NCBI GenBank assembly: GCA_963693305.1
Contig: OY855915.1
Location: 14,169,840-14,233,839 of the forward strand
Source: Meandrina meandrites
Lineage: Eukaryota; Cnidaria; Anthozoa; Scleractinia; Meandrinidae
DNA: 64,000 nucleotides
Direction: 5' to 3'
A model generated the notes under the pieces. It saw nothing but the letters and a program-made list of their open reading frames with translations. It had not been told where the DNA came from and searched no databases. Numbering within the stretch: position 1 is the first letter of the stretch; each line of letters opens with the position of its first letter. The translations under genes and the position numbers were made by a program. Positions 40,847-56,184 of this stretch are shown piece by piece.

Positions 40847-41189
40847 AGTAGCAGAAGATGGCCGAACCTGGGACATATCTATTTTTTTACTACATTTTCA
40901 AATATTGCATTTTACCCTGATTTACTCGGACCTCTCGAGAAAGCGCCTCGTGTTCATTCATCAAAAAATTCTTCCTCAAAGAATCTCTCTAACTCACTTT
41001 TTTACTCGATCTTCGTAAATCGTTCCAAATTTTTTTGATCGAGTAAATAAGTATATAATCAATGGAGAATCTCAACATTAAACAGCTTAAAAAACTCGCT
41101 AGAGAGCAAAGCATTAAACGCTATTATAAGATGCGTAAAGCCGAGTTAATCAAGGTACTGTCTCCGGAGGTGGATCTGATAGACCTCGG
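40847..41189 (+). repeat. left terminal inverted repeat
   Basis: 343 bp beginning AGTAGCAGAAGATGGCCG and matching the reverse complement of 55820-56184 with very few substitutions. One substitution (CGC/GGC) lies in codon 20 of the shared coding segment. It differs from the right TIR by lacking about 22 bp just before the start codon. It contains the first 43 codons of the Cys/His-repeat gene. Confidence 0.95.
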
Positions 41190-42003
41190 GCAGAATGATC
41201 TAATCGACCACAGTTCACCAACACAAAAAGAACCCATCGATGCTCCACAAAAACCTGTTAAAGCCTCATACTCTGAAGAACTTATCGCTGCTTTAACACA
41301 GGGTGAACCTATTAAAAAGACAGGGTTTGATAACCCAGATATAATCCCTTACAGATGCCCTCATGGAAAATATAAACCTCAATGTAAAGAGTGTAGAGGT
41401 TGGCGGATCTGTACTCATGGCAAATTTAAACCCTACTGCAGAGAGTGTGGAGGGTCTATGATATGCCCTCACAGAAGAGCTAAATCTAAATGTAAAGATT
41501 GTGGAGGCTCACAGATCTGTAAGCATAATCGAGTTATCTATTACTGCAGAGACTGTGGAGGGTCAAAGATCTGCACTCACGGAAAAGAAAAAAGATACTG
41601 TAAAGAGTGTAAAGGCAGTGGTATATGTGAGCATAATCGAGTAAAGTACGTATGTAAAGAGTGTAAAGGCGGTGGTATCTGTGAGCATAATCGAGTAAAG
41701 TACGTATGTAAAGAGTGTGGAGGAAAAGGCATCTGCCCTCACGGCAAACATAAGCGTCATTGTAAAGACTGTAAAGGTAACGGTATATGCCCCCACGGAA
41801 AAGATAAATCATACTGTAAAGACTGTGGAGGTAACGGTATATGCCCCCACGGAAAAGATAAATCATACTGTAAAGACTGTGGAGGGTCACAGATCTGTCC
41901 TCATGGAAGATTTAAGCGACAGTGTAAAGAGTGTGGAGGAAAAGGCATCTGTCAACACGGCAAACAGAAGTATCATTGTAAAGAGTGCAAGGCAACGCAC
42001 TGA
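41062..42003 (+). CDS. SAP-like domain plus twelve tandem Cys/His repeats
   Basis: 313 residues. Residues 4-37 (NIKQLKKLAREQSI...RKAELIKVL) look like a SAP/Rho-N helix-extended-loop-helix, a fold that often binds nucleic acid. This part lies in the TIR and is shared with the polymerase. After a ~50-residue linker, residues 99-313 are twelve 18-residue repeats of the form CxHx6CxxC followed by GGxxI. Every repeat keeps its three Cys and one His, which suggests one zinc per repeat or zinc shared between neighbours. Similar repeats are known to me from giant-virus and algal hypothetical proteins; function is not established. Repeats 6/7 and 9/10 are nearly identical in DNA, indicating recent expansion. 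The start is the ATG shared with polB. A hairpin follows the stop at once. DNA binding or regulation is inference. Confidence 0.85.
   Translation: MENLNIKQLKKLAREQSIKRYYKMRKAELIKVLSPEVDLIDLGQNDLIDHSSPTQKEPIDAPQKPVKASYSEELIAALTQGEPIKKTGFDNPDIIPYRCPHGKYKPQCKECRGWRICTHGKFKPYCRECGGSMICPHRRAKSKCKDCGGSQICKHNRVIYYCRDCGGSKICTHGKEKRYCKECKGSGICEHNRVKYVCKECKGGGICEHNRVKYVCKECGGKGICPHGKHKRHCKDCKGNGICPHGKDKSYCKDCGGNGICPHGKDKSYCKDCGGSQICPHGRFKRQCKECGGKGICQHGKQKYHCKECKATH
41356..42000 (+). repeat. 54-bp coding tandem repeat (12 units)
   Basis: In-frame repeat encoding the 18-residue Cys/His module. The unit length is constant with no frame slips. Sequence identity is highest between units 9 and 10. Confidence 0.9.
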
Positions 42004-42015
42004 CCCTCTGTTTAA

Positions 42016-42040
42016 TTCATAACGCGGCTCACGTTATGAA
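42016..42040 (+). terminator. hairpin after the left-end gene
   Basis: TTCATAACG (42016-42024) pairs exactly with CGTTATGAA (42032-42040) around a 7-base loop, beginning 12 nt after the stop codon. It may mark the 3' end of the message. Confidence 0.5.
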
Positions 42041-42100
42041 AGCTTTTATAATTCATAACAAACGTATAAAATTCAGGTCCAATATCTTATATTGTCTAAA

Positions 42101-42144
42101 AAATTCCTTTCGTACTAAAATTTATCGTAGCACGAAAGGAATTT
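42101..42144. terminator. 13-bp hairpin between convergent genes
   Basis: AAATTCCTTTCGT (42101-42113) pairs perfectly with ACGAAAGGAATTT (42132-42144). It sits in the only gap between the rightward left-end gene and the leftward virion block, so it could serve as a 3' end signal for both strands. Regulatory role is inference. Confidence 0.5.
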
Positions 42145-42228
42145 AAAAACAATAGATTTTTTTGTTGGGGTGATTGACGTCACCGGAAAAGGCAGTGATT
42201 AGCATAAGGAAAGAACAGTATTTGCATA

Positions 42229-43762
42229 TCATCGAAACATATACCACGCTAATCCACCGACGACGACTGTCAACACTGCAAGATTAATCTCATGTTTCGA
42301 TGTGTCAGGCTTAGCCGGCGGAGGTTTATCAGGTTGTGGCTCTTTCTTCACCACAGGCACATTAACCTTCTTCACAACCGAAGTGTGAGGTAGTAAAACC
42401 TTACTCTTACCGAGGTTATGCTTTATTCCGACAGATACACTCTTCGAATTAACATCAGAGTTGACACCCAATTTCATGGATGGTTTGACACGTTTCAGTC
42501 TATTGTTATAACCGATTGTGCTCTCTGTATTGATCACCATTCTCGATGGCATCAACCACGTACCGGGAGAGACGGCTAAATCCAACTTCACTTTGGCCTC
42601 TTGCACAGCGAGTTGAAATCTCTGTACACTGTTACTTATGTCCGGCTGTTTAATCGCATCCTCCAATAACACGAGAAACTCCTGTCGAACCTCCTGCGCA
42701 CTTCCTGTGTTTCCGAGTATGCTACTTCGAACGTTTACCTGCGCACCCAGAACACAGTAGACAAGCGCCTCTATGGATTGATTTAGTCTTGCCTGACCGG
42801 CGTTTGTCAATCCGTTAGATACACGAGTGAGAAAGTATTCATACTGATCTGTAGATTCTGTATTTAAAATATACTGCAGAAGATTGCCTTTCGATCCTTC
42901 ACCTCCCTCATCGCTGAATTTAAAAAATCCTGGGTAGGAAGAGTCAGTCTTTGACGGTCCTTCGTAAGAGACCCAAATGTACACTGATTCCCAACCCGTG
43001 ATTTGCTCCTTTATGACAGCGAAAGTCAGCATCAGTCGGTACATTAAACTCTTTACAGATCCTCTTATAAGAAGGAATATCGTATCTGTTATCTTTTTCA
43101 TTAAATGGTGGATCACCGGGTAAAGCGATTGAGCTCTGTATTCCTCCCATCTGTAAAAGGATTCGTCTGATTGTAAAGTAGACGTAAAACCAGAGAATAG
43201 CTCGTATCTGTGGCGGAAGTTTGAGTTCACTGTCTGTCATATTATCATCAAATAAAAGACGTAGGCTTACCCCACAACCTGTCGTTGCACACCAGACAGC
43301 GAAATTAAGCTGATGAGGCCAATACTTCATATTCGGTCCTGCCAACCACCTCAAAGACTCTTGTGATCCGGTGTGTTTAATTGTTGTATTCGTAAAGATG
43401 TCACGCACCGGTATCGAAAAATAATCTGTGGGTGTAGCGTAGATCTGTAGTTTACTGAGCTGCTCTCTCAAATTGAGGCTTCTCAGAGGTAGGTTCTCTC
43501 CGAAATCAATCGCAGGAATAGGTAATGAGGGTTTCGGATTAAGTGTCAACTCCAAAGGAAGATCTACCGGTAGCCCCAACGCTTTTTTCATCTCGTCGGG
43601 AAAGTACAGACTGTACATAAACTTACTCTTATCAAAGACTTCATTCTCTGAACCGTCCCTACCGACAAATCTGACATACGGTTCTTTATCGTAACTATCG
43701 ATGCCGTGTTTAAATTTAGACAGGTCGGCATGAGGATACCGATCGAGAAATCTCTTCCACAT
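42229..43762 (-). CDS. virion-type protein with C-terminal membrane anchor, frameshifted
   Basis: About 510 codons in two frames. The first (43762-~42990) starts MWKRFLDRYPHADLSKF and contains QLNFAVWCATTGCGVSLRL and DIPSYKRICKEF. The second (~42985-42229) continues SVYIWVSYEG, INQSIEALVYCVLGAQVNVR and INTESTIGYNN. It ends in a Pro/Lys-rich linker and a single hydrophobic segment (NLAVLTVVVGGLAWYMF) next to the C-terminus. The join is a one-base difference at about 42,988-42,990. The protein resembles a conserved hypothetical family that I associate with animal Polintons, probably a structural or membrane-anchored virion protein. Exact role unknown. A TTTAAA box lies 23 nt before the start. 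The initiator at 43230 is not a real start because it lies inside the family-conserved region. Confidence 0.7.
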
Positions 43763-43785
43763 CTCTATTTATCAACCACGATATT

Positions 43786-43791
43786 TTTAAA
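43786..43791 (-). promoter_or_regulatory. TTTAAA box of the membrane-anchored virion-type gene
   Basis: TTTAAA on the coding strand, 23 nt before the ATG at 43762. Confidence 0.6.
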
Positions 43792-43854
43792 CAAAGTAGG
43801 GATTATAGGGAGGATCTCTAAAAGAATCATCTATGACTATCAGGCAGTTACAAC

Positions 43855-44454
43855 TCACTCTGACTGGGTGATTTTTTTTAATATCTCTGCACGAATCTCT
43901 TCCTCCATCTTTTTTACATCCACCTGTTGCAGCGGTGGCGGGGGAGGCTGATATATTTTTTCTCTTATCAATCTCTTCATCTCATGGTACTTTTCAAAGT
44001 CAGATTTCACCAAAAGAAACTCTTCATGGCTTATTTTATTATCCGTCAACGCCTTAGAGACGACGTCCTTTATCGTGTTTATCTTCGCTTGACAGACAGA
44101 GACAGTCTTTTCATGCTTACTCACCTTCTTAGATATGGCTTTTGCAAGACTCGCGGTCACAACACTTGTCAATGCACAGACACCACCGACAACGCCCAAG
44201 GCGACCGAAACGGGAAGCCCGACTCCGGTAAGTCCTGTACCCAGTCCACCTCCGCAGAGAGCGACTGACAGAGTTCCGCTGCCTGTAGACAGATTCAATA
44301 GTGTGCTCCTTGCACGCTTATATTTTTTGTATATTTTTTCACAAATCCCCAACTCTTTCTCGAGATAAGATAGCCAATCTGCACACTGTTTTAATCTGAA
44401 GCCATCCCCGGTATCACTCGGCAACTGAGAGTATATCTCATTGTAACTCTCCAT
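43855..44454 (-). CDS. Gly-rich hydrophobic membrane-segment protein
   Basis: 199 residues. Residues ~57-105 form a long Gly/Leu/Val-rich hydrophobic stretch (SVALCGGGLGTGLTGVGLPV and onward) flanked by charged helical regions. Residues ~115-170 (ISHEEFLLVKSDFEKY) are predicted helical, and five consecutive prolines follow near 170. The central segment looks like a membrane-inserting hairpin, suggesting a minor virion or membrane-penetration role. I recall similar conserved proteins in other Polintons but no proven function. It is separated by only 3 bp from the stop of the upstream 305-residue gene. Confidence 0.75.
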   Translation of the reverse strand: MESYNEIYSQLPSDTGDGFRLKQCADWLSYLEKELGICEKIYKKYKRARSTLLNLSTGSGTLSVALCGGGLGTGLTGVGLPVSVALGVVGGVCALTSVVTASLAKAISKKVSKHEKTVSVCQAKINTIKDVVSKALTDNKISHEEFLLVKSDFEKYHEMKRLIREKIYQPPPPPLQQVDVKKMEEEIRAEILKKITQSE

Positions 44455-44457
44455 TTA

Positions 44458-45375
44458 TTATCTCTTCTGCTTATTTTTAACCTGTTCAACAAAGTAGACT
44501 ACGACAGCGACGATCAACAACCACGCATTCTTTGCAAAAAAACCGATGGCCTCACCCGCTGTTTTAAAGATAAAACTTGCGATCGCACCCACCATTCCGG
44601 GAAGTATCTCTCCCAATTTCTTTCCGATGGCTTTAAAACCGTTACCGACGCCCTTTCCAAGTTTCGACAGACCGCTCTTCAGATTAGAAAGAATCATACC
44701 GATCACTGCACCGACTGCCGACAGAACAGCGAACGCTGTGAAACCGTACTTTTTAAAGATCGCTTTGACTCTGTCTCTGAGTGACATACGTTCCTCTATC
44801 ACTTCATTCTCCCTCTCCAAGTTATCAATCTCCTCTCTCTGCTGATCAATGTTACGATCGATATTCTCTCTCTGACTCGGTCCAGCCTCTTTACGTGAGG
44901 ACTCAAGCTCTCTGACTTTATCTCTTCGCCTTGATATCTCATTCTCATTGACCTCTATAACCTTATCAGCAGAGGGACCGAGACTGTCTTTTATAGTTTT
45001 CGGTAATTTATCGTTCGGTTGACCATCCGGTTTAAAAAGAGGGTAACTCTTACCTCTCTGTCTTTTCAGTCTCACAGTCACTCGATCAAACTCGTCAATG
45101 GAGGCTGTGAAAGAGGAGTTGGCAGGATCAGCGTTCGGATACTTCTCTCGAATTCTTTCCCAAGCGTTCTCTACTCTCTCTTCTCTTCCTATAAGTGGTG
45201 TATTTTCATCCCAATTATCAATAAAAGAGGTCCCTTCTGTGTTGCGATGCTGACGCATGTCACGAGTTGATGTGGAAGTCATCGGTATCATCTCTCCCTC
45301 ATCATCATCACCGGGATCAGCCGGGTCAAAAGGATTATCTCTATCAGGTATCTCTGTTGGGTCAACATCAGCCAT
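44458..45375 (-). CDS. virion-type protein with coiled coil and C-terminal hydrophobic domain
   Basis: 305 residues in three parts. Residues 1-60 are acidic and disordered (DPFDPADPGDDDEGE-like). Residues ~140-200 are strongly charged and coiled-coil-like (NENEISRRRDKVRELE..., ENIDRNIDQQREEIDNLERE). Residues ~205-300 hold alternating hydrophobic and Gly/Lys segments (FAVLSAVGAVIGMILSNLK, LGKGVGNGFKAIGKKLGEIL, FFAKNAWLLIVAVVVYF). The Lys/Gly-rich middle resembles amphipathic membrane-active peptides. Such a tail is common in Polinton proteins and points to a minor capsid or membrane-disrupting role (inference). Confidence 0.75.
   Translation of the reverse strand: MADVDPTEIPDRDNPFDPADPGDDDEGEMIPMTSTSTRDMRQHRNTEGTSFIDNWDENTPLIGREERVENAWERIREKYPNADPANSSFTASIDEFDRVTVRLKRQRGKSYPLFKPDGQPNDKLPKTIKDSLGPSADKVIEVNENEISRRRDKVRELESSRKEAGPSQRENIDRNIDQQREEIDNLERENEVIEERMSLRDRVKAIFKKYGFTAFAVLSAVGAVIGMILSNLKSGLSKLGKGVGNGFKAIGKKLGEILPGMVGAIASFIFKTAGEAIGFFAKNAWLLIVAVVVYFVEQVKNKQKR
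44475..44480 (-). promoter_or_regulatory. TTAAAA box of the Gly-rich membrane-segment gene
   Basis: TTAAAA on the coding strand, 20 nt before the ATG at 44454. It lies inside the 3' end of the neighbouring gene. Confidence 0.55.
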
Positions 45376-45403
45376 GATTCTTTACTTATCAAGTAAAGAA
45401 TCT

Positions 45404-45409
45404 TTTAAA
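45404..45409 (-). promoter_or_regulatory. TTTAAA box of the 305-residue gene
   Basis: TTTAAA on the coding strand, 28 nt before the ATG at 45375, the widest spacing in the set. It overlaps the stop region of the upstream gene. Confidence 0.5.
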
Positions 45410-45820
45410 TTAAAACAGTTTACTCGCCACATAACCCAATGCCAACATGCCTCCACCGACGTATGCCATCTCACCCATTTTTTGGTCATCACTCGGTCTG
45501 TAGTAATCAGAGAGTTTGGGTTCTTGAAGACTATACTCTGGATGTGTCTGTGAATATAACTTAAAAGCCTCGTCAGTATTCGTTAGATTCTGTGATGCCC
45601 GATGCTCAGCTCTCTCTTGCTAATTATACCAATCTAACAGTCTCTGCCTCTTCTCCTCATAAGCTGCGTAGTCTTTTTGGTACTTCTCTATCGCCTTATC
45701 GTGTCTAATTCGTTCTGCATCCGTCTGCGAACCGCTCAGATACTTTGCAAGATAAGAACCGCCGACGAACGCTGTGGCGTTCAATACTGCACCACCGATC
45801 ATTAACGCAATGGTCGCCAT
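45410..45820 (-). CDS. small membrane-segment protein interrupted by an in-frame TAG
   Basis: The frame opens with MATIALMIGGAVLNATAFVGGSYLA, a hydrophobic N-terminal segment, followed by a charged helix (YQKDYAAYEEKRQRLLDWYN). A TAG at 45620-45622 stops it after 66 residues. The same frame then stays open for 69 more codons (QERAEHRASQNL.., LSDYYRPSDDQK.., AYVGGGMLALGYVASKLF) to a TAA at 45410. The downstream part has a second hydrophobic segment and ends like a finished protein, so I regard the whole as one gene. The TAG is either a recent nonsense mutation or a readthrough site. The following base context is CAA. Probably a membrane-associated virion protein. Confidence 0.65.
45620..45622 (-). 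other. in-frame TAG inside the 137-codon gene
   Basis: Coding-strand context is TATAATTAGCAAGAG. Coding character continues past it without frame change. The second in-frame TAG of the element (55396-55398, in polB) is also preceded by AAT. Confidence 0.7.
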
Positions 45821-45842
45821 CTATTTATTAAGAATGAGAAAC

Positions 45843-45848
45843 CTTTAA
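45843..45848 (-). promoter_or_regulatory. TTAAAG box of the TAG-interrupted small gene
   Basis: TTAAAG on the coding strand, 22 nt before the ATG at 45820. Confidence 0.6.
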
Positions 45849-46060
45849 GAGGGTAGAATCTTCTGTTTCTCCAAATACTCTTTCAAGTACATACTTCCGG
45901 ACAGGACGGCGACCCATTTACCGTAGTTAATAACACTGGATGAGGGGTCGTTTATAAATGATTCTTTTATGGCCTTCTTCGCAATGTACCCAACCCCCGC
46001 GGATAGACCGATCAAAACGGATGCATCAGTGACGGTCTTTACAAGTTTATTCTCTGACAT
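45845..46060 (-). CDS. short membrane-anchor protein, paralogue of the fibre N-terminus
   Basis: 71 residues. It shares the pattern DASVLIGxxxGxGY, DPSSSVINYGKWVAVLSG and YLKEYLEK with residues 1-60 of the fibre-like protein at 46347-47309, but stops where the fibre shaft would begin. Two hydrophobic segments (about 12-28 and 46-58) suggest it spans or lines a membrane. It may be a duplicated anchor that partners the fibre, or a degenerated second fibre. It has its own promoter box, so it is probably expressed. Confidence 0.75.
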   Translation of the reverse strand: MSENKLVKTVTDASVLIGLSAGVGYIAKKAIKESFINDPSSSVINYGKWVAVLSGSMYLKEYLEKQKILPS

Positions 46061-46080
46061 TTTACTTTCAGGAGATACTG

Positions 46081-46086
46081 TTTAAA
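46081..46086 (-). promoter_or_regulatory. TTTAAA box of the short anchor gene
   Basis: TTTAAA on the coding strand, 20 nt before the ATG at 46060. Confidence 0.6.
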
Positions 46087-46091
46087 TCGAT

Positions 46092-46325
46092 TTACAAAAA
46101 TGTGTCGTAATCATTTCCCTTCCTTCTCTCCTCCTCTACTCTTCTCAACTCCTGTTCTCTGCGTTTATCTTTTATTACGAAAGCGCGACCGTTATACTCA
46201 CCGCACTCACACAGTCCCCCTCCCTCAGGTATCTTAACTCCGCAGACGCAATGTTGTTTAGGAAAACGAAACGTTAGAAATAGACCGAAGGCACCGATGG
46301 CCACTCCCAAAACTCTATTCCACAT
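46092..46325 (-). CDS. small protein with N-terminal membrane segment and paired CxC motifs
   Basis: 77 residues. MWNRVLGVAIGAFGLFLTF is a signal-anchor-like segment. It is followed by HCVCGVKIPEGGGLCECGEY, two CxC pairs spaced like a zinc ribbon or a disulphide-bonded knuckle. The C-terminal third is a charged helix (REQELRRVEEERRK). No family recognised. It lies between the short anchor and the fibre gene, so a role at the same virion vertex is possible but unproven. Confidence 0.7.
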   Translation of the reverse strand: MWNRVLGVAIGAFGLFLTFRFPKQHCVCGVKIPEGGGLCECGEYNGRAFVIKDKRREQELRRVEEERRKGNDYDTFL

Positions 46326-46344
46326 TTTATAGAGTGGACATACT

Positions 46345-46350
46345 CTTTAA
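46345..46350 (-). promoter_or_regulatory. TTAAAG box of the CxC gene
   Basis: TTAAAG on the coding strand, 19 nt before the ATG at 46325. It overlaps the last codons of the upstream fibre gene. Confidence 0.55.
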
Positions 46351-47309
46351 TCGATCTTATTTAACATTATGTATCCGAACTTCTTATATCCTGAACCCAA
46401 ACCGTCAAAAAGGGTGCCGGCATCTGAGGTCTGTATCTTTAATGAGGTGTTTTTGTATATATCTAAAACAGAGATGAAATTATACGTTTTAAATCCACTG
46501 CTTGAGTTGGGTACTGTGATGTTGATATCATCATTCAGACTCAGAAAGGGTGCGGGATTTAAAATAAACTGAACAGTTCCGTTATCATCCTTTTTGCTTG
46601 TCTTTAATCCGTCGATCAGAGAGATAGAGTAGACGCCCGGTTTTGTGATTATTATTCTCTCTGGGTGGTTGACATTCACAACGAAATCGGAGGGATCACT
46701 CTGTCTGGTATAACGACTGTGTGATTCCGTTCCGTTTGCAAAGAATTTTACGGTGTTATCATTGTTATGGTGAAGATAACCTTTATAAAAGACTTTTCTG
46801 GGGACGTATGTTTTTATCTCAGTCATTCTCTGCTGTATGTACGACACATTTCTGTCAACGGTTCTGTTCACGTAATTGACGTTCGCAGCGTGATTAACAT
46901 CTGAGGGTTCCGGTTCTTTAAGATTCTTTATCTCATTCCCTCCCATGTCGAGATCTCCCTTCTTACTCACCTTCTCGTCAACATAACTTTTGTTAACTAC
47001 GTCTCTGTCATCAATGGGAGATGCGAGGTTTGTGATCCTCTTTAATTTGACATCTACAGTCTTTTCGTTGAGTTTAATAGTCTTTCCCTTATCTCTCTTT
47101 GAGGTGAGGGAATCAATCCTCTTCAGTATCTCATCTCTCTGCAGATAGTCTTTCAGATAAAAGCTAGCAGAGAGGATTCCTACCCATTTAAGGTAGTCGA
47201 TCACACTTGTTGAGGGATCGTACAGATTGACAAAGTACCCGAACCCTGAGGCGATACCGATCAGAACAGAGGCGTCAGCAATCATCTTGAAGATCTTCTC
47301 TTTCGACAT
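46347..47309 (-). CDS. fibre-like protein with membrane anchor and phage-tail-fibre-type shaft
   Basis: 320 residues. Residues 1-60 carry the hydrophobic anchor shared with the 71-residue neighbour. Residues ~91-113 (ITNLASPIDDRDVVNKSYVD) and ~127-151 (IKNLKEPEPSDVNHAANVNY) are two copies of the NL..P...D..N..YV motif. Between them is a DLDMGGNEI turn, as in trimeric phage tail fibres. Residues ~170-320 are beta-rich with many Asn, Thr and Ser (YKGYLHHNNDNTVKFF.., FILNPAPFLSLNDDINIT) and could be a C1q/TNF-like or fibre head. The architecture anchor-shaft-head suggests a receptor-binding spike. Family knowledge supports the shaft motif; head fold and receptor role are inference. Confidence 0.75.
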   Translation of the reverse strand: MSKEKIFKMIADASVLIGIASGFGYFVNLYDPSTSVIDYLKWVGILSASFYLKDYLQRDEILKRIDSLTSKRDKGKTIKLNEKTVDVKLKRITNLASPIDDRDVVNKSYVDEKVSKKGDLDMGGNEIKNLKEPEPSDVNHAANVNYVNRTVDRNVSYIQQRMTEIKTYVPRKVFYKGYLHHNNDNTVKFFANGTESHSRYTRQSDPSDFVVNVNHPERIIITKPGVYSISLIDGLKTSKKDDNGTVQFILNPAPFLSLNDDINITVPNSSSGFKTYNFISVLDIYKNTSLKIQTSDAGTLFDGLGSGYKKFGYIMLNKID

Positions 47310-47329
47310 TATTATTGAGAGAGAAGATC

Positions 47330-47335
47330 TTTAAA
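47330..47335 (-). promoter_or_regulatory. TTTAAA box of the fibre-like gene
   Basis: TTTAAA on the coding strand, 20 nt before the ATG at 47309. It overlaps the stop region of the upstream gene (ends 47331). Confidence 0.6.
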
Positions 47336-47804
47336 TCATTCCTATCTTCGGGGTTATCGGGACCGGAATCTTTGAGGCAGGTGGTTCAGGATGTCTAACC
47401 TGCGGAGGTTCACTCATAACCTTTGGTGTTCTATAACTCATAAACATATTGATCGCTGTCAAGCCGATTCCGACGAGAGAGACGACGGTTGTGAAAGACA
47501 TCTCAGGAAACCAAGGCTCTGTCTTTCCTGTCTCTTCCTCCTCCTGAGCCTTCTCAGCCTCACGTTGCATCTCTCTTTTTAATGCCTCCTTTGCCCTTCT
47601 GTTATGCTCGGCGAGTTTCTTTCCGGCGGCGACCTTCTTGGGATCTTTCTCCTTTTTGGCATTCTCCTGTATGGGGGTCTTTGTGATCTGCTCGCTATCT
47701 CTCACAAGGTTATGCTCGCTATCTCTCACAAGGTTATGCTCGCTATCTCTCACAAGGTTATGCTCGCTATCTCTCCCAAAGTTATGTTCAACATCGTCTG
47801 ACAT
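47331..47804 (-). CDS. membrane protein with N-terminal 8-residue repeats
   Basis: 157 residues. The first 40 are four copies of the octapeptide RDSEHNLV (first copy GRDSEHNF-like, last ending in QI), encoded by a 24-bp direct repeat at about 47,690-47,790. A basic helix follows (KKVAAGKKLAEHNRRAKEAL), then an acidic run EEEETG. A single hydrophobic segment at ~103-122 (FTTVVSLVGIGLTAINMFM) and a Pro-rich tail complete it. The KKVAAGKKLAEHNR part resembles a nucleic-acid-binding or virion core-type segment seen in related elements. Function unknown. Confidence 0.75.
   Translation of the reverse strand: MSDDVEHNFGRDSEHNLVRDSEHNLVRDSEHNLVRDSEQITKTPIQENAKKEKDPKKVAAGKKLAEHNRRAKEALKREMQREAEKAQEEEETGKTEPWFPEMSFTTVVSLVGIGLTAINMFMSYRTPKVMSEPPQVRHPEPPASKIPVPITPKIGMI
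47690..47790 (-). repeat. 24-bp coding direct repeat
   Basis: CTCGCTATCTCTCACAAGGT recurs four times on the plus strand at 24-bp spacing, three copies identical, inside the 157-residue gene. Copy number is likely to vary between element copies. Confidence 0.9.
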
Positions 47805-47828
47805 GTTTTAGTAATGTACTCTGTTGTC

Positions 47829-47834
47829 TTTAAA
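47829..47834 (-). promoter_or_regulatory. TTTAAA box of the 157-residue gene
   Basis: TTTAAA on the coding strand, 24 nt before the ATG at 47804. Confidence 0.6.
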
Positions 47835-47868
47835 TCAACAGAAGAGTTGATTTAAGGTATTCTAAGAG

Positions 47869-48129
47869 TCAACCGGTTTTAAAAAATCCACCCTCAACGA
47901 TTGTGTTATGCTGTACATCAGTCTCACTCATCTTTATGGTCACTCCCCTTCCTTTGTCAAAAGCGTTGGCGATTCTTTTAAACTGTTGGTCAGTGAAAGC
48001 GATGAGATCATCACCCTGAAGATCATCATGTTTAAATCTTATAGAGACGGCCTCTTTGTTTATGATGGCAGAGAGTATCTTATCTATCTGATTCTCAGAG
48101 ATGGTCACTTTATGATGTCTGTAAGGCAT
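47869..48129 (-). CDS. small conserved Polinton-type protein ending in EGGFF
   Basis: 86 residues beginning MPYRHHKVTISENQIDKIL and ending IVEGGFFKTG. The pattern (HHxxxLS..Q..KI, ..VxIRFK.., ..QQFKRI..A...GRGVTIKMS..) matches a small protein I associate with Polintons, sometimes found as the N-terminal part of a longer virion protein. The GG near the end looks like a viral protease cleavage-type site, but no protease was recognised in this element. Here it stops three residues after the GGF region, so it may be a shortened form. Confidence 0.65.
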   Translation of the reverse strand: MPYRHHKVTISENQIDKILSAIINKEAVSIRFKHDDLQGDDLIAFTDQQFKRIANAFDKGRGVTIKMSETDVQHNTIVEGGFFKTG

Positions 48130-48151
48130 ATTTTATCATATCTAAGAAGTC

Positions 48152-48157
48152 TTTAAA
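48152..48157 (-). promoter_or_regulatory. TTTAAA box of the 86-residue gene
   Basis: TTTAAA on the coding strand, 22 nt before the ATG at 48129. It overlaps the 3' end of the nuclease gene. Confidence 0.6.
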
Positions 48158-48539
48158 TAATCTTAACACCCTCTATTAACAATCTCCCAACAATAAAAGG
48201 CTTAAGTTCATGATAAGGAACGTAGTGAGGGATTCTTATTAAGAGAATCCCTTTATCTTTACACATTTCATTCTTCAAAGAGTCTCTAAACACTTGATAA
48301 TGAAAGTCGCTCATACAGGAGTGAAAACACGGAGTGAACTCTGTATGTTGTCTGCCATCGTATTCAAATGCCAAACCTTTACCAAGGGGAGTGGTTATAT
48401 CAGGGTTATAACCGTCCAACTCGAGGTTTTGGTATGTCAAAGGATTTTTTAACCAATCGGGTCTTACACTATTAAAAGCGGATCCTAATAACTCTTGAAA
48501 TATTCTTCTACACTCCTCTTCATAAATGTTTAATGACAT
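48153..48539 (-). CDS. PD-(D/E)XK-type endonuclease
   Basis: 128 residues. It has an N-terminal helix with YEEECRRIFQELLG and then NLELDGYNPDI. The catalytic strand is AFEYDGRQH (58-65), and the downstream signature is RDSLKNEMC...ILLIRIP (85-104). This set of motifs is typical of Vsr/DUF559-like and virus-encoded PD-(D/E)XK nucleases, with Glu/Asp in the strand and the RD..K helix completing the active site. All expected acidic and basic residues are present. Possible roles are resolving replication intermediates or nicking host or element DNA; which one is inference. It sits between the packaging/unknown gene pair and the small structural genes. Confidence 0.75.
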   Translation of the reverse strand: MSLNIYEEECRRIFQELLGSAFNSVRPDWLKNPLTYQNLELDGYNPDITTPLGKGLAFEYDGRQHTEFTPCFHSCMSDFHYQVFRDSLKNEMCKDKGILLIRIPHYVPYHELKPFIVGRLLIEGVKII

Positions 48540-48561: not shown

Positions 48562-48567
48562 TTTAAA
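48562..48567 (-). promoter_or_regulatory. TTTAAA box of the nuclease gene
   Basis: TTTAAA on the coding strand, 22 nt before the ATG at 48539. Confidence 0.6.
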
Positions 48568-48589
48568 TCAACAGAAGAGTTGATTTAGT

Positions 48590-48689: not shown

Positions 48690-49184
48690 TTACTCAGTCG
48701 TGTTAGAAATCTCCTGTTCTGTCTCCTCAGAGGGTCTTAATTTGACATGCTTAGCGACCTTAAACATTCCGCTTGCGAGTGCTACCAATCTTCCTCCCTT
48801 TAAAACAAGAAGACCTGCGAAGTTTGACAGTTCACGCTTGACCAACTCATCGTTCTGCAAGTCTTCGCTGAGAGCCTCAACATCATCAACGGGAATGACA
48901 TAAGAGATAAGAACAGAGGCCGCTGAGATGGCTGACTCTACCAAACCTCCCGTTACCTTCTTACCCATGACCGTCTTATAATGATTTAAGTATTTTTTGA
49001 CATCCTTTGAAGAGAGCTTCTTAATGTCTCCCAGACTCATCGCTTTACCGAGAAACTCTTCTGTTGTTCCGAGAGAGGCGAGGATTGCGAGTGATTCTCT
49101 CTGAGTCTCCAGATCGTCATCATCAGTCTGCTCTTTTGTCTTCTCCTCAGGACCGAACTCGATGTAGTCTTCAACGTTTGCCAT
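48690..49184 (-). CDS. conserved Polinton-type protein next to the packaging ATPase, function unknown
   Basis: 164 residues. It has an acidic N-terminus (ANVEDYIEFGPEEK), a helical middle (SSKDVKKYLNHYKTVMGKKV) and a weakly hydrophobic C-terminal half (ESAISAASVLISYVIPVDDV, AGLLVLKGGRLVALASGMF). The IPVDD.EAL..DL..D..V..EL pattern is one I associate with a conserved Polinton family usually beside the ATPase. Its location suggests virion assembly. No catalytic motif is visible. Confidence 0.7.
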   Translation of the reverse strand: MANVEDYIEFGPEEKTKEQTDDDDLETQRESLAILASLGTTEEFLGKAMSLGDIKKLSSKDVKKYLNHYKTVMGKKVTGGLVESAISAASVLISYVIPVDDVEALSEDLQNDELVKRELSNFAGLLVLKGGRLVALASGMFKVAKHVKLRPSEETEQEISNTTE

Positions 49185-49206
49185 ATTAATGTTTACTCAC
49201 ACTTCT

Positions 49207-49212
49207 TTTAAA
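49207..49212 (-). promoter_or_regulatory. TTTAAA box of the ATPase-adjacent gene
   Basis: TTTAAA on the coding strand, 22 nt before the ATG at 49184. It overlaps the stop codon region of the ATPase gene. Confidence 0.6.
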
Positions 49213-49828
49213 CCGGTATCTCAAGATAACACTCAAACGGATAGCGAAGGCAGAGACAGAGTCGGGCATATCTCTCTGTTTTTAACAGTTTCATAAATGT
49301 TTTTCGAGTCTCTATGTCAAGATCTCCTCCGTAATCTTCAAACAGTGTCTTCGTTCCGACCTGAGAGGGATTGTAAAAAGCTACCACGCATGCGACGTTC
49401 TCTCGGAAGGGTTTCGCAACAGATGTTAACTGCTGCGTTAACACCCATACACTCAATCCGTCGTGTCTCCCCGAGAAAGCGAGGTCGATGAATTTATTAG
49501 AGCGTTGCTTAAGGTCTTTGGAGACGGCGCAGTCGTCAAGAATAATCAAGGAGTTGGTTCCTGAGAGAAGGGTTGCACAGTCCTTCAAAAGGTCATTAAT
49601 CTCATCACTGTTACTCGAATCCGGAGATAGGACAAAGAAGCGTTTATCACCGCGGGAGAACCTGTGGTAGGTCTTATTCTTTGCATAGGTCGGGCAGATC
49701 AGAACTATGTACTCAAAGACCTTTCGGAACGGACCTCGTAACTTCTCTATAAGGTAATTTGTCTTTCCGCAGTTTGTCGGTCCGGTGATGATCATGTGAA
49801 ACGGAACTTTCTCTCGTAACTCATCCAT
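49208..49828 (-). CDS. ATP: genome-packaging ATPase (FtsK/HerA superfamily)
   Basis: 206 residues. Walker A is GPTNCGKT at 16-23. Walker B is LIILDD at 94-99, preceded by a beta strand. A sensor-like VWVLTQQ is at 127-133. The gene has the short single-domain length of Polinton, adenovirus and poxvirus-A32-type packaging ATPases, which pump the genome into the capsid. All key residues are present and the frame is intact. It lies directly downstream of the capsid gene, the usual Polinton order. Confidence 0.92.
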   Translation of the reverse strand: MDELREKVPFHMIITGPTNCGKTNYLIEKLRGPFRKVFEYIVLICPTYAKNKTYHRFSRGDKRFFVLSPDSSNSDEINDLLKDCATLLSGTNSLIILDDCAVSKDLKQRSNKFIDLAFSGRHDGLSVWVLTQQLTSVAKPFRENVACVVAFYNPSQVGTKTLFEDYGGDLDIETRKTFMKLLKTERYARLCLCLRYPFECYLEIPV

Positions 49829-49848
49829 TCATTATCTCTTCTCAGGTT

Positions 49849-49854
49849 TTTTAA
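49849..49854 (-). promoter_or_regulatory. TTAAAA box of the ATPase gene
   Basis: TTAAAA on the coding strand, 20 nt before the ATG at 49828. Confidence 0.55.
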
Positions 49855-49912
49855 TACATGATGAACTGATTAGTACATGATGAATGAAGTTCATGGTTCA
49901 GTACATGATTGA
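49852..49912. promoter_or_regulatory. dyad cluster between ATPase and capsid genes
   Basis: TACATGATGAA occurs at 49,855 and 49,873, TACATGAT again at about 49,902, and GAAGTTCATGGTTCAGTACATG completes a partly self-complementary block. Its reverse complement matches the block at about 48,644-48,680. Likely an RNA hairpin at the 3' end of the capsid message (inference). Confidence 0.5.
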
Positions 49913-51139
49913 CTTCAACTCAGTGTTCATAATCTCCATCAACGCGTCAGCGACCACGAACATGTGACAGGTGATGTTTCCCGTTCCTCCGGTCTTTCGT
50001 TTGATCTCCAGTTTAACACCGTCTCGTGTGTTGTTAACGTGAAGTCCTCCACCGTGAATACCGTTGTCGGGAAAGGTTCTCAGGTCGATCCAGAGAGCGA
50101 ACTTATCTTCGTAGAAGTCCTCCTCTTTTACCTTGCCCGCTCCACCCATCCGTCTCTTGATAGCCTCCCAAAAGTCAGACGGAATCATTCCCTTTGGGTA
50201 GAGTTGATTGGGCATGCCGTCGATGTTGATGTTGACCGATTTAATATCAGGATTGACAAACTTCTCAGAGTCTCGTTCTCCCTCTTTATAATCCTCTTCA
50301 AACAGTAACAGTACGCCCGTCATCGACCTTCTCGGAAGATTGACGTGCTCGTTAATTATGCTGTCGTTCGGCTTTGAGATGGGGAACGTTTTGTGAAGGA
50401 TTACATTCTCGTAGAAGAATCCTTTACCCACCTGATAACTGGTCATCACCTCACTAGTTAGGTAGTCACTTACGATACAGGAGTACTCCAACTCGAGGTT
50501 TGTGATTTTATATGTCGGCGGTGTTTTTTCCTTCTCTTTTATGTCATGATTTACGATCTTATCAACCTTCGGAAGAGTGATCTCAAAGATCAGTGGATGA
50601 GGCAACGCCTTCGGATAGAGAGCTCCGTGATCACTGAGAACGGGATGGTCGAGAGGTATAATGTACTTGGTGTTGTGAATGGCGGCGAGGGCGACCTCCT
50701 TTTTGTCAGATGTGACCTTATCCCCTGCGTTCGTTCGAAGTTTTCTCATATTCTCTGATGAGATTCCCTGTTTTAATCTGTCCTCTCGATCATCAAGAAA
50801 GAGGTCATGGTAGGTTTGAAAGAGATCGTATCTCTCTGTCTCCTGTAGTTTCTCACCGCCAAAAGAGACCTTAAGTTGACAGACAAGGTTTCGACCGACG
50901 TTATTTACGAGGGTGTTGTTGGCATGACCGCTAACTTTTAAGTCAAAAAGTAGTTTAACACTTCCCGGTACGATCACCACGTTGTCTGTCAGTTTGGGAA
51001 TGTTTATGTAGAGTGTCGCACCTTCACTTGCTGAGGAGGGATTTAACGTGATCCTGTTCAAAGAGGACTCCGCCTTTAGACCGAAAGGTTCTCGTGGAAC
51101 TCTGTTAGGGTTGATCTTCTCTGATATAGCCTGTGACAT
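49898..51139 (-). CDS. MCP: probable major capsid protein (double jelly-roll type)
   Basis: 413 residues, intact. Motifs that I associate with the Polinton/adintovirus capsid family are seen in order. They are LYINIPKLTDNVVIVPGSV (near 43-61), VCQLKVSFGGEKLQETERYD, YPKALPHPLIFEITLP, a central NLPRRSMTGVLLLFEEDYKEG, INIDGMPNQLYPKGM, and near the end FALWIDLRTFPDNGIHGGG and CHMFVVADALMEI. The two-fold succession of beta-rich segments fits two jelly-roll domains, but the fold is inferred, not visible. Size, neighbour (packaging ATPase) and opening position of the virion block support the call. The start has TTTAAA 22 nt upstream. The intact frame suggests recent activity. Confidence 0.82.
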   Translation of the reverse strand: MSQAISEKINPNRVPREPFGLKAESSLNRITLNPSSASEGATLYINIPKLTDNVVIVPGSVKLLFDLKVSGHANNTLVNNVGRNLVCQLKVSFGGEKLQETERYDLFQTYHDLFLDDREDRLKQGISSENMRKLRTNAGDKVTSDKKEVALAAIHNTKYIIPLDHPVLSDHGALYPKALPHPLIFEITLPKVDKIVNHDIKEKEKTPPTYKITNLELEYSCIVSDYLTSEVMTSYQVGKGFFYENVILHKTFPISKPNDSIINEHVNLPRRSMTGVLLLFEEDYKEGERDSEKFVNPDIKSVNINIDGMPNQLYPKGMIPSDFWEAIKRRMGGAGKVKEEDFYEDKFALWIDLRTFPDNGIHGGGLHVNNTRDGVKLEIKRKTGGTGNITCHMFVVADALMEIMNTELKSIMY

Positions 51140-51161
51140 TTTAAAGTAAGAAAAGATTATT

Positions 51162-51167
51162 TTTAAA
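51162..51167. promoter_or_regulatory. palindromic TTTAAA box between capsid and integrase genes
   Basis: TTTAAA reads the same on both strands. It lies 22 nt before the leftward capsid ATG (51139) and 17 nt before the probable rightward integrase start (51185), so one box may serve both. Confidence 0.6.
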
Positions 51168-51184
51168 CGAGTAATCTTTCAAAA

Positions 51185-52116
51185 ATATTTTACAGCGCCG
51201 AAGGTTATTGGAAAGGGTACTCTGCCATTTCTAAACTTGCGAGTGCGGCAAAGGTCAGTGAGGCTGAGGCAAGAGATTGGTTAGAGAGACAGGCACTGTG
51301 GCAAATATATCTTCCTCCACCGAAGACCGTGCCGAGGCCACATTGGACTGTGGATAGACCGAATGAAATTCAACAGGCCGATCTTCTGTTTCTTCCGCAT
51401 GACAGGGTGGGAAGAAAGACGTATCGTTACGCTTTGGTGGTGATCGACGTTGCAACGAGATATAAAGATGCTGAGGCTCTGTCATCGAAAGAGAGTCAAG
51501 AGGTGGCGAAAGCGTTCGATAGAATCTACTCGAGAAAGCTTGACTGGCCAAAGACACTGATGGTCGATCCCGGTAAAGAGTTTATGGGTTATGTGACAAA
51601 GTTAATGGAGAGACATAACGTAAAGATACAGAGAAGCGAGGCGGGTAACCATCGAGCTCAGGCCTTTGTTGAGAGAGCGAACAGGACTTTGGGAGAGAGA
51701 CTGTTCTCTCATCAGTACGTGCAGGAGATGGTGAGAGAGGAGAGATCAAGAGTCTGGGTGAAGAGGCTGCCTGCCGTTATGAAAGCGTTAAATTCTGAGG
51801 TCATTCAGATCACAGGTAAAGAACCTGATAAAGCCATCACTTTAAAAGAGGTTGACATAAAACCAAACAGTTATAAAAGACCTGGTTGCCGCCGGGGGTT
51901 CAGGTTCGGTATCTCTTCTCTCCCGGAGAGGATGAGGGAGGAGAGAAGAGAAGAGCGACCGATCCGATCTGGAGTATTGAGGTTTATAATCTCTCAAGGG
52001 TTCAGGTCTCTACCGATCAACCTGTGTTATATTATCTTCTTGACGGACCGAAGAGATCGTTTGTGAGGGAGGAGCTTCAGGTTGTGCCTTCAGACACTGA
52101 GCTTCCACCTTTATAA
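51185..52116 (+). CDS. INT: retroviral-type (DDE) integrase with chromodomain-like tail, frameshifted, no ATG
   Basis: The coding frame is open from 51167. Conserved N-terminal sequence (FYSAEGYWKGYSAISKL) begins at about 51,188, right after an ATA codon at 51185 where an ATG is expected, so the start is either ATA, a mutated ATG, or further upstream by splicing. The core domain keeps all three catalytic acids: D in EIQQADLLFLP (codon at 51380), D in TLMVDPGKEF, and E in AQAFVERANRT, with 34 residues between the last two. Near 51,884 the frame shifts by one base. The C-terminal part in the next frame reads VRYLFSPGEDEGG, ATDPIWSIEVY and LYYLLDGPKRSFVREELQVV, the chromodomain-like tail of Polinton integrases. 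It would catalyse insertion of element DNA with the 5-bp duplication. The 3' end overlaps polB by 40 bp, tail to tail. Confidence 0.85.
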
Positions 52117-55100
52117 TGACCGTAAGCGAAGGTATGTATTAAATCTTCCCGTATGATTCTTTTATCATCGAAAGGAGAGAGAGCAACCTTGTTAACTGTC
52201 TCGGTATAAATGGTATATAGATGACTTCTTATCACGTTCATCTTTCTCATAGCGGGGCTATTATCAAACAAGCAATTTTTGTAATCGTTAAAGTTTATGG
52301 TCCTCTTTATCACCGCCTTCTTGACTCCCTTACACTTTTTCTCCTCTTCTCCCTCTTGCACTCTGTATGAGTAGAGTTTGGCTCTCAGACCTACGAACTC
52401 AGTGATCTGCTTACCGGCGGCCTCGTCTTTGAACATACCGATGACCTTTCTGTTAACACCTGTGAGTATTCCGTTTGAGTGATTCTTCGGGTAGTTACTT
52501 ATGTCAAACTTTGATTTCACATCGGAGGAGATGTCTCTGTAAAAATCTTCCGTCTCTATCTCATAAGCCAGGCTGTCTGTGTCTGTAAAGAGAAGCTTTG
52601 CTCTCTCTCCGTATTTGGGTTTGATATAATTGTAATGAAAATCGTACATTAAGGTCTTATTCAGATCGAGGATAGACATACCGAGGTAGATGGGTTTGTT
52701 AAAGTACAGGCTTGTCTTCTTCATATGAACGGCAGCGAGAGTTTTAGAGAAGACCGTGTGATGTTGATAGTTCGGTTTAGATGTCAACCTCTTCGCCTGT
52801 TCTTCACGAGTGACCAATCTTATATCGACTCTGTTTCTGATGTTCTCCATAGTCTTTCCGAATACGGAGTTATTCATCAACTGAAAAAAGTCCTTCTCAA
52901 AATCGTTAGAGGCCTTCGCTCTTAGATCTGTATTCAGATCGATGTAGGGTTTTAACCATGCTGACTCTTCAAAAGATATGCCTCTGTGAATCTTCTTGAG
53001 TTTAAGACCGAGAGAGAGATAGAGTTTTAAAGTTTCGTGATGAATTACGTACTTTGTTTTTTCGTTGAGATTGGGGATAAGCTTCTCTACCTTATTCACG
53101 ATGAGTCTCTCCGGTGCCAACGGATAGTCGTTATGCAGGTCATGAAGTTTTTGGGGATAGTGAAGGTCGACCTCAAGTATGCAGGGTTGAGTCTTCCAAG
53201 ACTTTAACTCCTCTCTCTTCATCCATTTAAAACCATGCGTCGGCAGAGGTTTACACATCGCCCAGCCGTAGAGATTGTTTGCGTCGAGATAAGAGATGTA
53301 CTTTGTCGGTAGGTTGGGATCGTACTCTTTTAGATAAGGGTTGTTTGCTTTACCGTATCTAGTTGAGATCATAGACACACCTCCTCTAATTCCTTTCTCT
53401 ACCATCATTAACATGTCGTAGTCTTTTAACAACTCCAGACTGACCTTGGTGATCTTTAAAGCGGCATCCCAAGCCAGTCCGGGTGCTGTGTAATAGAATG
53501 CAGGGTCGAGAGAGTAGTTTTCAAGGCAGACATCCCTGAAGTTTTCAAAGACGTCAGAGAGAAGGAGAACATCACTCTCGAGATAGAGGTCATGGTAATC
53601 TCTCATGGTCTTCATGTTGAAGGTTTTCCACACATTCTGTGCGTGTTTATAATCTTCTTCTGTGATGTCAGTGTCATTCAGTACTGAGTGGAAGGCCTCT
53701 TTCGGTGGAAGGTGTTCGGCAGAGAGTCTGTCAAAAGAGTCGAACCAATCGTAGGGAAAGACACCCTTTCTTATGAGAAGGTCTAACTGTTCACCTTTAT
53801 AGAATTTTGCAATGTTTTTAAAAGACTCTTTAGGAACATTCTTTACTAAACTGTCAAGACTGGCAGCCATGAACTTGAAGCTGTCTATGAACCTTATGTA
53901 ACGCTTAACCTCTTTCTCTTCTCCTTCCTTATTCATAAATGTGTCTACCAAGATCTGCTTTGTGAATGAGATATACTTCTCCTCATTATTGGGTATGCAG
54001 TCTATCTTTCCCTCTGATTTGCCGAGGTTTTTGATAAATAGATGACTGTCATAACCGGAGAGATTGTGAAAGATGACAGGGACGAATTTGGGAATTTTAT
54101 ACTTTAAATTACATATGCTATGTGCTGCACCTCTATACTTTCCCGTAAGGTGACAGTGGTCACGGACCTTTCTATAGTTTTTATCATCCCCTAATTCACC
54201 CTCACAGATGTGGCAGATAGTCGACTTTATATAGTCGATCTCATCCTCTTTTGTCATCTCCATCTTCTTCTCGAATTTAAACCTTTTGTATATGTCTTTG
54301 ATGTCTGACTCCAAACTCTCTACAAACAACTTAGAGACGTCGTTATCGTAAGGAGAATCAGCTGTGTACTGAACAAGCTTGGATGGATAAACGTTTTTGT
54401 CAAAGCATTTGATGAGATAACTGAAACCTGATGGTCTGTGCTTTTGATATCTGTTGGTGAAGCTTCTATCGTCATCCGGTTGGCATGTGTCTATCTTCTC
54501 TGTAAAAGATTCAAAATCAGCGTAAACAACAAAAGGAACTCTCATCTTTTTATGAAAATGATTGAATTTGATATAGACGGGAGAAGTATTTCCTTCTTTG
54601 TCTTCATTCATCGGCATCTCAATCTTGACAGCCTCGTTATTCTGGCAGTATTCGATATGCTTCTCAAGTGATTTTTCTGATTGAAATGAGTTTAAGCATC
54701 TGTAGCAAAAATGCCGTTTGTTTTGGTGATTATTAATCTGCTTGGATAGCAGTTTCGATATGTTCTTTATCCAGCAGTAGTGATTGGTCTCTTCATTAGC
54801 GATTAGGAGAAGGTGTATCACCTGTTTATCTCTCTTGCTTATCCTCAGAGGGTACACCTCTGCATCTTTCATAACCGAAGACGTTGATTGCGTAAGGGTT
54901 CTGCTTTTCAAACTTATCAATCTGTTTAAGTGAGACTGGAAACTCGATACCTATCCAGTCAAACTTCTTAGAATCTTCTCTCATCCGTTTGCTGAATCTC
55001 TCTCCTTTTTCATCTGCAGGAAACACTGCGGATGTTACTGCCCATTTAAAACACTCATGATCTTTCTCATTCTTGACGTTGATGATTGCCTTTTTAGAGG

Positions 55101-55947
55101 CCAACTTATCCGGTAAGGGAATGTAAGAGGAAGCGGAGAGAGGATTGTAAGGGTTAATGTTAATGTCAAGGTGTTCGATTCTGTCGAATTGCCAACCAGA
55201 TCCTCTGTTATTAAAATTCTGTATCGATTCAAAGATTTTATTTGTCATCTTAATGTATAGGTCAGAGAGGTCGGTCGCCTCTGTAACAATCTCCGGGTCT
55301 GTATGAAAATGACTGTGGTTGATGTCGATTTGGCCGGTGGCAGGGTTCTCTTTGATAAACTTTATTGATATAATGAACTTGACTTTGATAGATCTCTAAT
55401 TACTCTTGATGAGATCTATAACCCTCGACTTGACTCTTTCCATAAACGTCTTCGGGTCTACTCCGTTTACTCCGTCTACTCTAAACGTTTTAAAATACCC
55501 CTTTATGGCTGTCTTATGCTCTTTGGGTGTGAGGTTATCATACCTCTTAAATATACGGTTCACTGTCTCTTTTAGACTGTCGACTCTTTTATTCACAGTC
55601 TTTTTAATCGGTTCGGGAACGTGAGATATTATCCAGTCTGCAAACTTGTCTATCTCTCTTTTTACCGGCTTTGCAGCCTTTGAGGCAAGATTCTTTAGTT
55701 GTGATACTTTAGAGGGATTTGTCGGTCTTAGGATGGGTATATTAATCTCTGGTATGGGTTGATCGATAACGTTTGAGGGTTTATTACTCGTTGGTTGTCT
55801 TATATTTCCCGCGTCTTTACCGAGGTCTATCAGATCCACCTCCGGAGACAGTACCTTGATTAACTCGGCTTTACGCATCTTATAATAGCCTTTAATGCTT
55901 TGCTCTCTAGCGAGTTTTTTAAGCTGTTTAATGTTGAGATTCTCCAT
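52077..55947 (-). CDS. POLB: protein-primed family B DNA polymerase, interrupted by TAG and a frameshift
   Basis: About 1,285 codons in three sections. Section 1 (55947-55396, 183 codons) holds the SAP-like start shared with the left-end gene and ends at TAG. Section 2 (55395 to about 54,870) continues in frame through RSIKVKFIISIKF.. and NNRGSGWQFDRIEHLDIN. Section 3 (about 54,870-52077) is one base out of frame and holds the enzyme. It has a C2HC finger (CYRCLNSF...HIEYC), exonuclease motifs VVYADFES, HNLSGYDSH and YLESDVLLLSD, and a CHIC...HCHLTG...AAHSICN cluster. The polymerase motifs are YLDANNLYGW (A), MNNSVFGK (B) and LFTDTDSLAYE (C). All catalytic acids are present. The Met at 54920 and at 55248 are not real starts, because homologous sequence runs through both, as the second polymerase at 61759 shows. 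Replicates the element using a terminal protein primer (family knowledge). Confidence 0.9.
54866..54870 (-). other. one-base frameshift in polB
   Basis: The N-terminal frame (ending NPYAINVFGY) and the polymerase frame (VYPLRISKRD) meet here, with a run of three A on the coding strand. Either a one-base insertion or a +1 recoding site. Confidence 0.75.
55396..55398 (-). other. in-frame TAG inside polB
   Basis: Coding-strand context is AAGAGTAATTAGAGATCT. The sequence after it (IKVKFIISIKF) aligns with VKVSFGLQVKF in the second polymerase of the window, where the frame runs on without a stop. So the 183-codon frame is the polymerase N-terminus, not a separate gene. Confidence 0.75.
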
Positions 55948-56184
55948 TGATTATATATAAAAAGAATCTCTTTAACTCACTTTTTTACTCGATCAAAAAA
56001 ATTTGGAACGATTTACGAAGATCGAGTAAAAAAGTGAGTTAGAGAGATTCTTTGAGGAAGAATTTTTTGATGAATGAACACGAGGCGCTTTCTCGAGAGG
56101 TCCGAGTAAATCAGGGTAAAATGCAATATTTGAAAATGTAGTAAAAAAATAGATATGTCCCAGGTTCGGCCATCTTCTGCTACT
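55820..56184 (-). repeat. right terminal inverted repeat
   Basis: 365 bp, reverse complement of 40847-41189. It carries about 22 extra bases (AGTGAGTTAAAGAGATTCTT on the coding strand, then T-rich sequence) that supply the promoter box of polB and are missing from the left TIR. Confidence 0.95.
55970..55975 (-). promoter_or_regulatory. TTAAAG box of polB
   Basis: TTAAAG on the coding strand, 22 nt before the ATG at 55947, followed by TTTTTATATATAATC. Present only in the right TIR. Confidence 0.6.

Follow-up and report, generated by a model that had tools for sequence, protein, structure and literature searches.

A partly broken Polinton-type provirus of a large cnidarian family in the coral Meandrina meandrites, with a shared coding start inside its terminal inverted repeats

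Polinton/Maverick elements are described with target site duplications of 5–6 bp (PMC8547959) or 6 bp (PMC10045372 and PMC8097293), and the core genes of vertebrate Mavericks are reported to be under strong purifying selection (PMC8097293). Adintoviruses are defined by a PolB with an OTU-like N-terminus and by hexons recognizable with BLASTP, to which an integrase with a C-terminal chromodomain is added (PMC11071296). According to PMC10120064, cnidarians are the sole metazoans whose major capsid proteins (MCPs) fall outside the main Maverick-Polinton cluster, which holds the adintoviruses. Mavericks are reported to make up 1.41–6.74% of three coral genomes (PMC12005156), and an element from Stylophora encodes an active vOTU fused to pPolB, as described in PMC11071308. 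The Mavirus and Sputnik virophages are also counted among the closest known systems. Here we analyze a 64-kb stretch of the genome of the coral Meandrina meandrites (contig OY855915.1, positions 14,169,840 to 14,233,839; hereafter the window), in which an element of 15,338 bp spans positions 40847–56184. The element is a Polinton/Maverick-type provirus. We give a probability of roughly 90% to the reading that a large family of cnidarian-type Polinton proviruses has one integrated copy here, now partly broken, and that its working relatives replicate and spread by the mechanism proposed below. On the descriptions in PMC10120064 and PMC12005156, neither a distinct cnidarian group nor its abundance is new.

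The ends of the element, its insertion site and its two terminal genes are as follows (TIR, terminal inverted repeat; ORF, open reading frame).

40847..41189, + strand: left TIR, 343 nt, tip AGTAGCAG, holding an ATG (41062) and a Rho_N/SAP-like coding start
55820..56184, - strand: right TIR, 365 nt, holding an ATG (55947) and the Rho_N/SAP-like start of the polymerase
40842..40846, no strand: left copy of the target site duplication, CAGAC, from the sequence
56185..56189, no strand: right copy of the target site duplication, CAGAC, from the sequence
41062..42003, + strand: terminal gene 1, 313 aa, a Rho_N/SAP-like N-terminus followed by 12 CxH...CxxC repeats
52077..55947, - strand: terminal gene 2, polymerase, in three ORF pieces (55396-55947, 54826-55248 and 52077-54920)

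The two TIRs align over 343 bases, of which 341 are identical and 2 differ, with a single gap of 22 nt. The host flanks are a minisatellite with a 39–41-bp unit. Flanks of 40 nt per side joined with a single CAGAC (80 nt) align ungapped with the left array (74/78 aligned bases) and with the right array (73/80), whereas joins with both copies of CAGAC or with neither require a gap against the left array. Removal of the element and one CAGAC thus leaves an ungapped minisatellite, indicating insertion with a 5-bp stagger. The original prediction, made from the letters of the window, of matching TIRs of ~350 bp with CAGAC on both sides is borne out by TIRs of 343 and 365 nt and by a minisatellite that is in register after excision. 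Pairs of ends were compared for related elements of this genome, counting the pair in the window: 8/11 have an exact 5-bp duplication beside an AGTAG tip; two of these eight share flanks and represent one event, duplicated. In a test of such 5-bp matches, 8/10 and 7/9 were far beyond chance expectation. TIRs with a 5-bp duplication agree with the 5–6 bp by which Polinton/Maverick elements are recognized.

The proteins expected of such an element, together with a fibre and a nuclease, lie between the TIRs.

49898..51139, - strand: 413-aa capsid protein; AlphaFold model with a predicted local distance difference test score (pLDDT) of 85.6 and a predicted template modelling score (pTM) of 0.86, with structural matches in PDB and BFVD
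49208..49828, - strand: packaging ATPase, 206 aa, intact; Pox_A32 7.8e-12, above cut-off
51329..52066, + strand: rve-type integrase; rve 2.6e-8, above cut-off, frame lost after residue ~187
46347..47309, - strand: fibre/spike-like protein, 320 aa, with an N-terminal anchor, T7-tail-fibre-like repeats and a C-terminal domain
48153..48539, - strand: nuclease-like protein, 128 aa; PHROG HNH/homing endonuclease families 3.9e-10, 7e-6 and 9.8e-6

By its predicted structure the 413-aa protein is a double jelly-roll capsid protein, and the solved structures nearest to its fold are giant-virus capsids. The original prediction of a capsid-like protein had been staked on this fold, and the refuting outcome, a model lacking it, did not occur. 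The VIA list of matches is a re-examination of the Foldseek results, and families absent from it may match as well; the capsid protein had no match among PDB sequences. One database relative of the capsid (P0035) has its N-terminus replaced by a Rho_N/SAP-like stretch resembling that of the TIR and is perhaps an internal deletion derivative. Another capsid cluster (P0094, 64% identity) represents 4,980 sequences, which hints at a much larger expansion in another genome. The ATPase is of the A32/FtsK-HerA packaging type expected of Polinton/Maverick elements, as its Pox_A32 match indicates, and the rve-type integrase is likewise present, although its frame in the window is broken. NCBIfam matches of the integrase to IS481, IS3 and IS30 fall far below their cut-offs and reflect the shared rve fold only. 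The fibre matches a PHROG tail fibre family (4.6e-8) and, below cut-off, Phage_T7_tail (0.001).

Relatives were sought in the host assembly (551 Mb, 56 contigs). Because all genome rows used here are the best-scoring matches, the counts are minimum values and overstate intactness; they also include block duplicates. We scored the best 101 of 794 candidates for the capsid (4 rows with a stop), 150 of 1990 for the integrase, 150 of 1311 for the ATPase (one with a stop), 125 of 1075 for the fibre and 150 of 230 for the nuclease (one with a stop). The search for other copies that had been proposed with the original prediction therefore finds many relatives, well over a hundred in this one genome. 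For 54/101 capsid rows a polymerase start among the rows listed lies on the same strand 4.76–5.83 kb upstream, and both frames are open in 36/54. With 125 and 150 scored copies, the fibre and the nuclease are regular genes of the Polinton family here. In the elements that were read, the second terminal gene regularly encodes the Cys/His protein. The suggestion that additional genes might make the gene complement new is corrected to that extent. One group of related elements (G000:C6:17.07-17.39 Mb) contains two with the same 14-nt flanks ~190–200 kb apart, pointing to a block duplication.

The predicted layout of the polymerase is a Rho_N/SAP-like domain, a terminal-protein region, a vOTU-like region, an endonuclease VII (EndoVII) insert and PolB. 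The 183-aa ORF at the right end matches the start of one long frame elsewhere in the genome; in 92/150 best rows the match is stop-free and the frame is open for 1,250 aa or more. Most database relatives found with the 947-aa piece are proteins of about 1,275 aa, and Rho_N is recorded in 108/120 of them among the matches listed. Since relatives carry one long ORF of ~1,275–1,300 aa, the 183-, 140- and 947-aa ORFs of the window are three pieces of one gene, and the right-end protein is the polymerase start. Against PDB sequences the single piece searched had no match, and a profile gave only chance matches and Rho N-termini. An alignment of 25 relatives shows invariant motifs, which we take to be the exonuclease and palm motifs; invariant Cys294 and His383, in what we presume to be the vOTU motif, are consistent with the vOTU that PMC11071308 describes. 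Polinton polymerases with homing-endonuclease insertions have been described (PMC11071308), so the EndoVII insert is not new. Outside the element, 61759-63356 (+) holds ORFs of 299 and 161 aa that look like what is left of another polymerase, different from this one but broadly of its kind; the similarity of their Cys motif was judged by eye, and Pfam gives no support. An ORF at 18419-18898 of the window resembles, by eye, what we take to be a reverse transcriptase fragment.

The DNA of working relatives would be linear, with inverted ends; a protein-primed family B polymerase would copy it, and the A32-type ATPase would pack it into a double jelly-roll capsid bearing the fibre-like surface protein. 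The rve integrase would insert the DNA with a 5-bp stagger. The TIR supplies an upstream region, possibly with a promoter, as well as the start codon and the Rho_N/SAP-like domain, giving both terminal genes a common N-terminus that does not drift apart between the two ends of an element.

Because each TIR holds a start codon and the Rho_N/SAP-like domain, the polymerase and the Cys/His-repeat protein begin alike. In terminal gene 1 the Pfam Rho_N match (5.6e-5) is just under cut-off, and its 12 Cys/His repeats were counted by regular expression. The start codon and Rho_N/SAP-like stretch occur in both TIRs of 9/9 elements read at both ends, one end of each being a polymerase start. Left and right copies of the domain (99 nt) are identical in 7/9; the exceptions are the window (0.99) and the element C6a (0.95). 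Between elements, domain identity has a median of 0.81 (144 comparisons) and the pooled pN/pS is 0.20. At the end without the polymerase, the reading frame of the shared start stays open into 4–12 CxH...CxxC repeats in 9/9 ends read; these comprise eight of the nine two-end elements and the element C7, read at that end only. C6a was omitted because the domain copy opposite its polymerase carries a stop, and 11 Cys/His repeats lie in one frame further inward. Rho_N and SAP-like domains bind DNA, and the shared terminal domain may do so as well. No such shared terminal domain was found in the literature searched (Polintons with a SAP domain or Rho termination; Repbase and most subscription papers lay outside reach).

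Two accounts of this arrangement can be weighed. It is quite possible, if short of probable, that the shared start is a by-product of a TIR that grew inward over the polymerase start, leaving an idle copy opposite. End homogenization proceeds independently of coding content, so the conservation of one copy is inseparable from that of the other, and the stop in the copy of C6a opposite the polymerase fits an idle sequence. Against this stand the nine non-polymerase ends, where the Cys/His repeats follow the shared start in one open frame, and the pattern of partial matches in the genome. Of 257 TIR candidates, 40 places were scored, and just 13 of these match over most of the TIR length. Nearly all others start at base 207, 9 bases ahead of the start codon. 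The partially matching elements therefore keep the coding-start stretch (query 207 onward) and not the TIR tip. We tentatively propose, while rating it less likely than not, that the TIR is a coding cassette: it would place an identical upstream region and start codon, with a DNA-binding domain, at each end, so that the priming polymerase and the zinc-repeat protein would carry an end-matched recognition domain. If the cassette reading were true, any change in the domain would be copied to both proteins and both ends, coupling end recognition with replication and separating lineages. The shared terminal domain thus offers a specific, testable idea for how such elements recognize their own ends.

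Selection bears on whether the virion genes are used. The capsid sample consisted of 40 copies fetched from the 101 rows, less one with a stop, plus the window gene. The 780 pairs among these 40 sequences gave a median Nei–Gojobori ratio of nonsynonymous to synonymous change (omega) of 0.153 (range 0.055–0.247). Median omega was 0.13 for the integrase core (range 0.065–0.31) and 0.179 for the fibre (0.104–0.336), each from 20 fetched copies plus the window; throughout, the pairs are non-independent and the copies were picked among best-scoring matches, which favours conserved ones. Within these sample limits, capsid, fibre and integrase are under purifying selection, as expected for this kind of element from the pattern reported in PMC8097293. 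The capsid genes might instead be passengers of an intracellular transposon that spreads by polymerase and integrase only, its virion module unused. The high copy number within one genome agrees with this, no extracellular form has been seen, and a scan of IMG/VR with the capsid protein returned 19 pattern-matching stretches and 0 confirmed relatives. Yet capsid and fibre are constrained about as strongly as the integrase, and the capsid constraint also holds between close pairs (median omega 0.134 in the 8 pairs whose dS is below 0.1), which speaks for spread in particles over capsid-free transposition. We regard the passenger account as improbable.

A second copy of the element lies 102,453 bp downstream on the plus strand of contig C13, with the left TIR and the listed capsid protein 100% identical. 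Seven pieces taken from about 2 to 63 kb of the window match this second block at 99.5–100% of aligned bases, about 99.8% for the pieces together, and both copies sit between identical flanks with the same target duplication. Over 4.2 kb around the capsid, the two copies have 5 base differences and one 19-nt length difference, which falls within the integrase ORF; the integrase frame of the second copy is 322 aa. The second copy belongs either to a duplicated block or to a haplotype left uncollapsed in the assembly. An independent recent insertion reflecting current activity, which the identical TIR and capsid protein might suggest, is ruled out by the shared flanks and target duplication and the block-wide match.

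The window copy itself is defective: the polymerase, the integrase and a gene of ~530 aa are broken, as judged from relatives that carry each as a single frame. The integrase aligns with its relatives over residues 1–187, and most of the best 150 rows are frames of 320–335 aa. Open polymerase and integrase frames do occur in other genome copies, and in the window the frames of capsid, ATPase, fibre and nuclease are uninterrupted. The original prediction that the element could have made virions recently is not supported for this copy. For the family it gains support as far as the evidence goes, because these four frames are open in most of the best-scoring copies and the capsid is constrained. 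Whether animal Polintons make virions is an open question, and with well over 100 copies, most of the best-scoring ones open in these genes, and a constrained capsid, this one host makes it testable.

Several observations weigh against our reading, beyond the preference for conserved copies in the omega samples. The reading is drawn from genome sequence, and the window copy has at least 4 frame breaks. The other 3/11 end pairs comprise one without a duplication, one near match and one unresolved (C7). The polymerase matches none of the DNA polymerase models in Pfam, which recognizes Rho_N and the endonuclease VII insert in it. In hhalign comparisons it aligned with phi29 polymerase in register across three palm motifs, though with an E of 0.06 and a probability of 0.9%, and with PRD1 polymerase over 61 columns at E 8e-4 and a probability of 24%, both low.

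The remaining genes of the element are these.

42229..43762, - strand: split ~530-aa gene with a C-terminal hydrophobic stretch (ORFs 42944-43762 and 42229-43230)
43855..44454, - strand: 199-aa protein with hydrophobic segments; ORF, no Pfam family above cut-off
44458..45375, - strand: 305-aa protein with C-terminal hydrophobic segments; ORF, no Pfam family above cut-off
45620..45820, - strand: 66-aa hydrophobic small ORF
45845..46060, - strand: 71-aa paralogue of the fibre N-terminal anchor (51% identity, BLASTP 3e-21)
46092..46325, - strand: 77-aa small ORF with a CxC motif; no Pfam family
47331..47804, - strand: 157-aa protein with 24-nt tandem repeats; ORF
47869..48129, - strand: 86-aa small protein; ORF
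48690..49184, - strand: 164-aa protein; ORF, no Pfam or PHROG family

In the database, full-length counterparts of the split gene are one protein each, about 515–555 aa long, and the model of the ~530-aa protein (pLDDT 38.6) is too poor for a fold reading. The predicted count of 16 genes stands after merging the three polymerase ORFs and the two of the ~530-aa gene, provided the 66-, 71- and 77-aa ORFs are counted. No minor capsid protein was recognized among the element proteins, and Pfam, run on 16 ORFs plus 3 small ones, gave no match to an Ulp1/adenain-type cysteine protease, of which distant forms are possible. Rfam had no family at gathering score within the window. Beyond the right end, 57011-59402 is a long array of diverged 20-bp units in both orientations.

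How the element relates to described systems can now be stated. The original label of Polinton/adintovirus-like is right for a Polinton type with a double jelly-roll capsid, whereas strict adintovirus membership is not shown. As described in PMC11071296, adintoviruses share with the element a PolB (predicted here), an rve integrase, a packaging ATPase and a hexon-type capsid, and the adintovirus protein A0A8D9PE51 is a structural match to the capsid at rank 14. They differ in that the capsid fold here ranks nearer to giant-virus capsids and in the integrase chromodomain, which Pfam did not find in the two relatives with long integrase frames (only these two, the window C-terminus being lost). 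In the Stylophora element, as far as PMC11071308 describes it, the terminal protein is a separate gene, whereas relatives here have one long ORF with a Rho_N/SAP-like start inside the TIR. Vertebrate Mavericks, in the account of PMC8097293, resemble the element in their inverted repeats, in ends that start with AGT (a double AGT in those elements, AGTAG in this one) and in purifying selection on the capsid; they have 6-bp duplications and a protease gene, against 5 bp and no protease recognized by Pfam here. The cnidarian Polintons of PMC10120064 and PMC11071308, compared by description, share the rve integrase, ATPase and double jelly-roll capsid as well as a pPolB, which is predicted here, and the giant-virus-like ranking of the capsid fold agrees with the placement of cnidarian MCPs given in PMC10120064.
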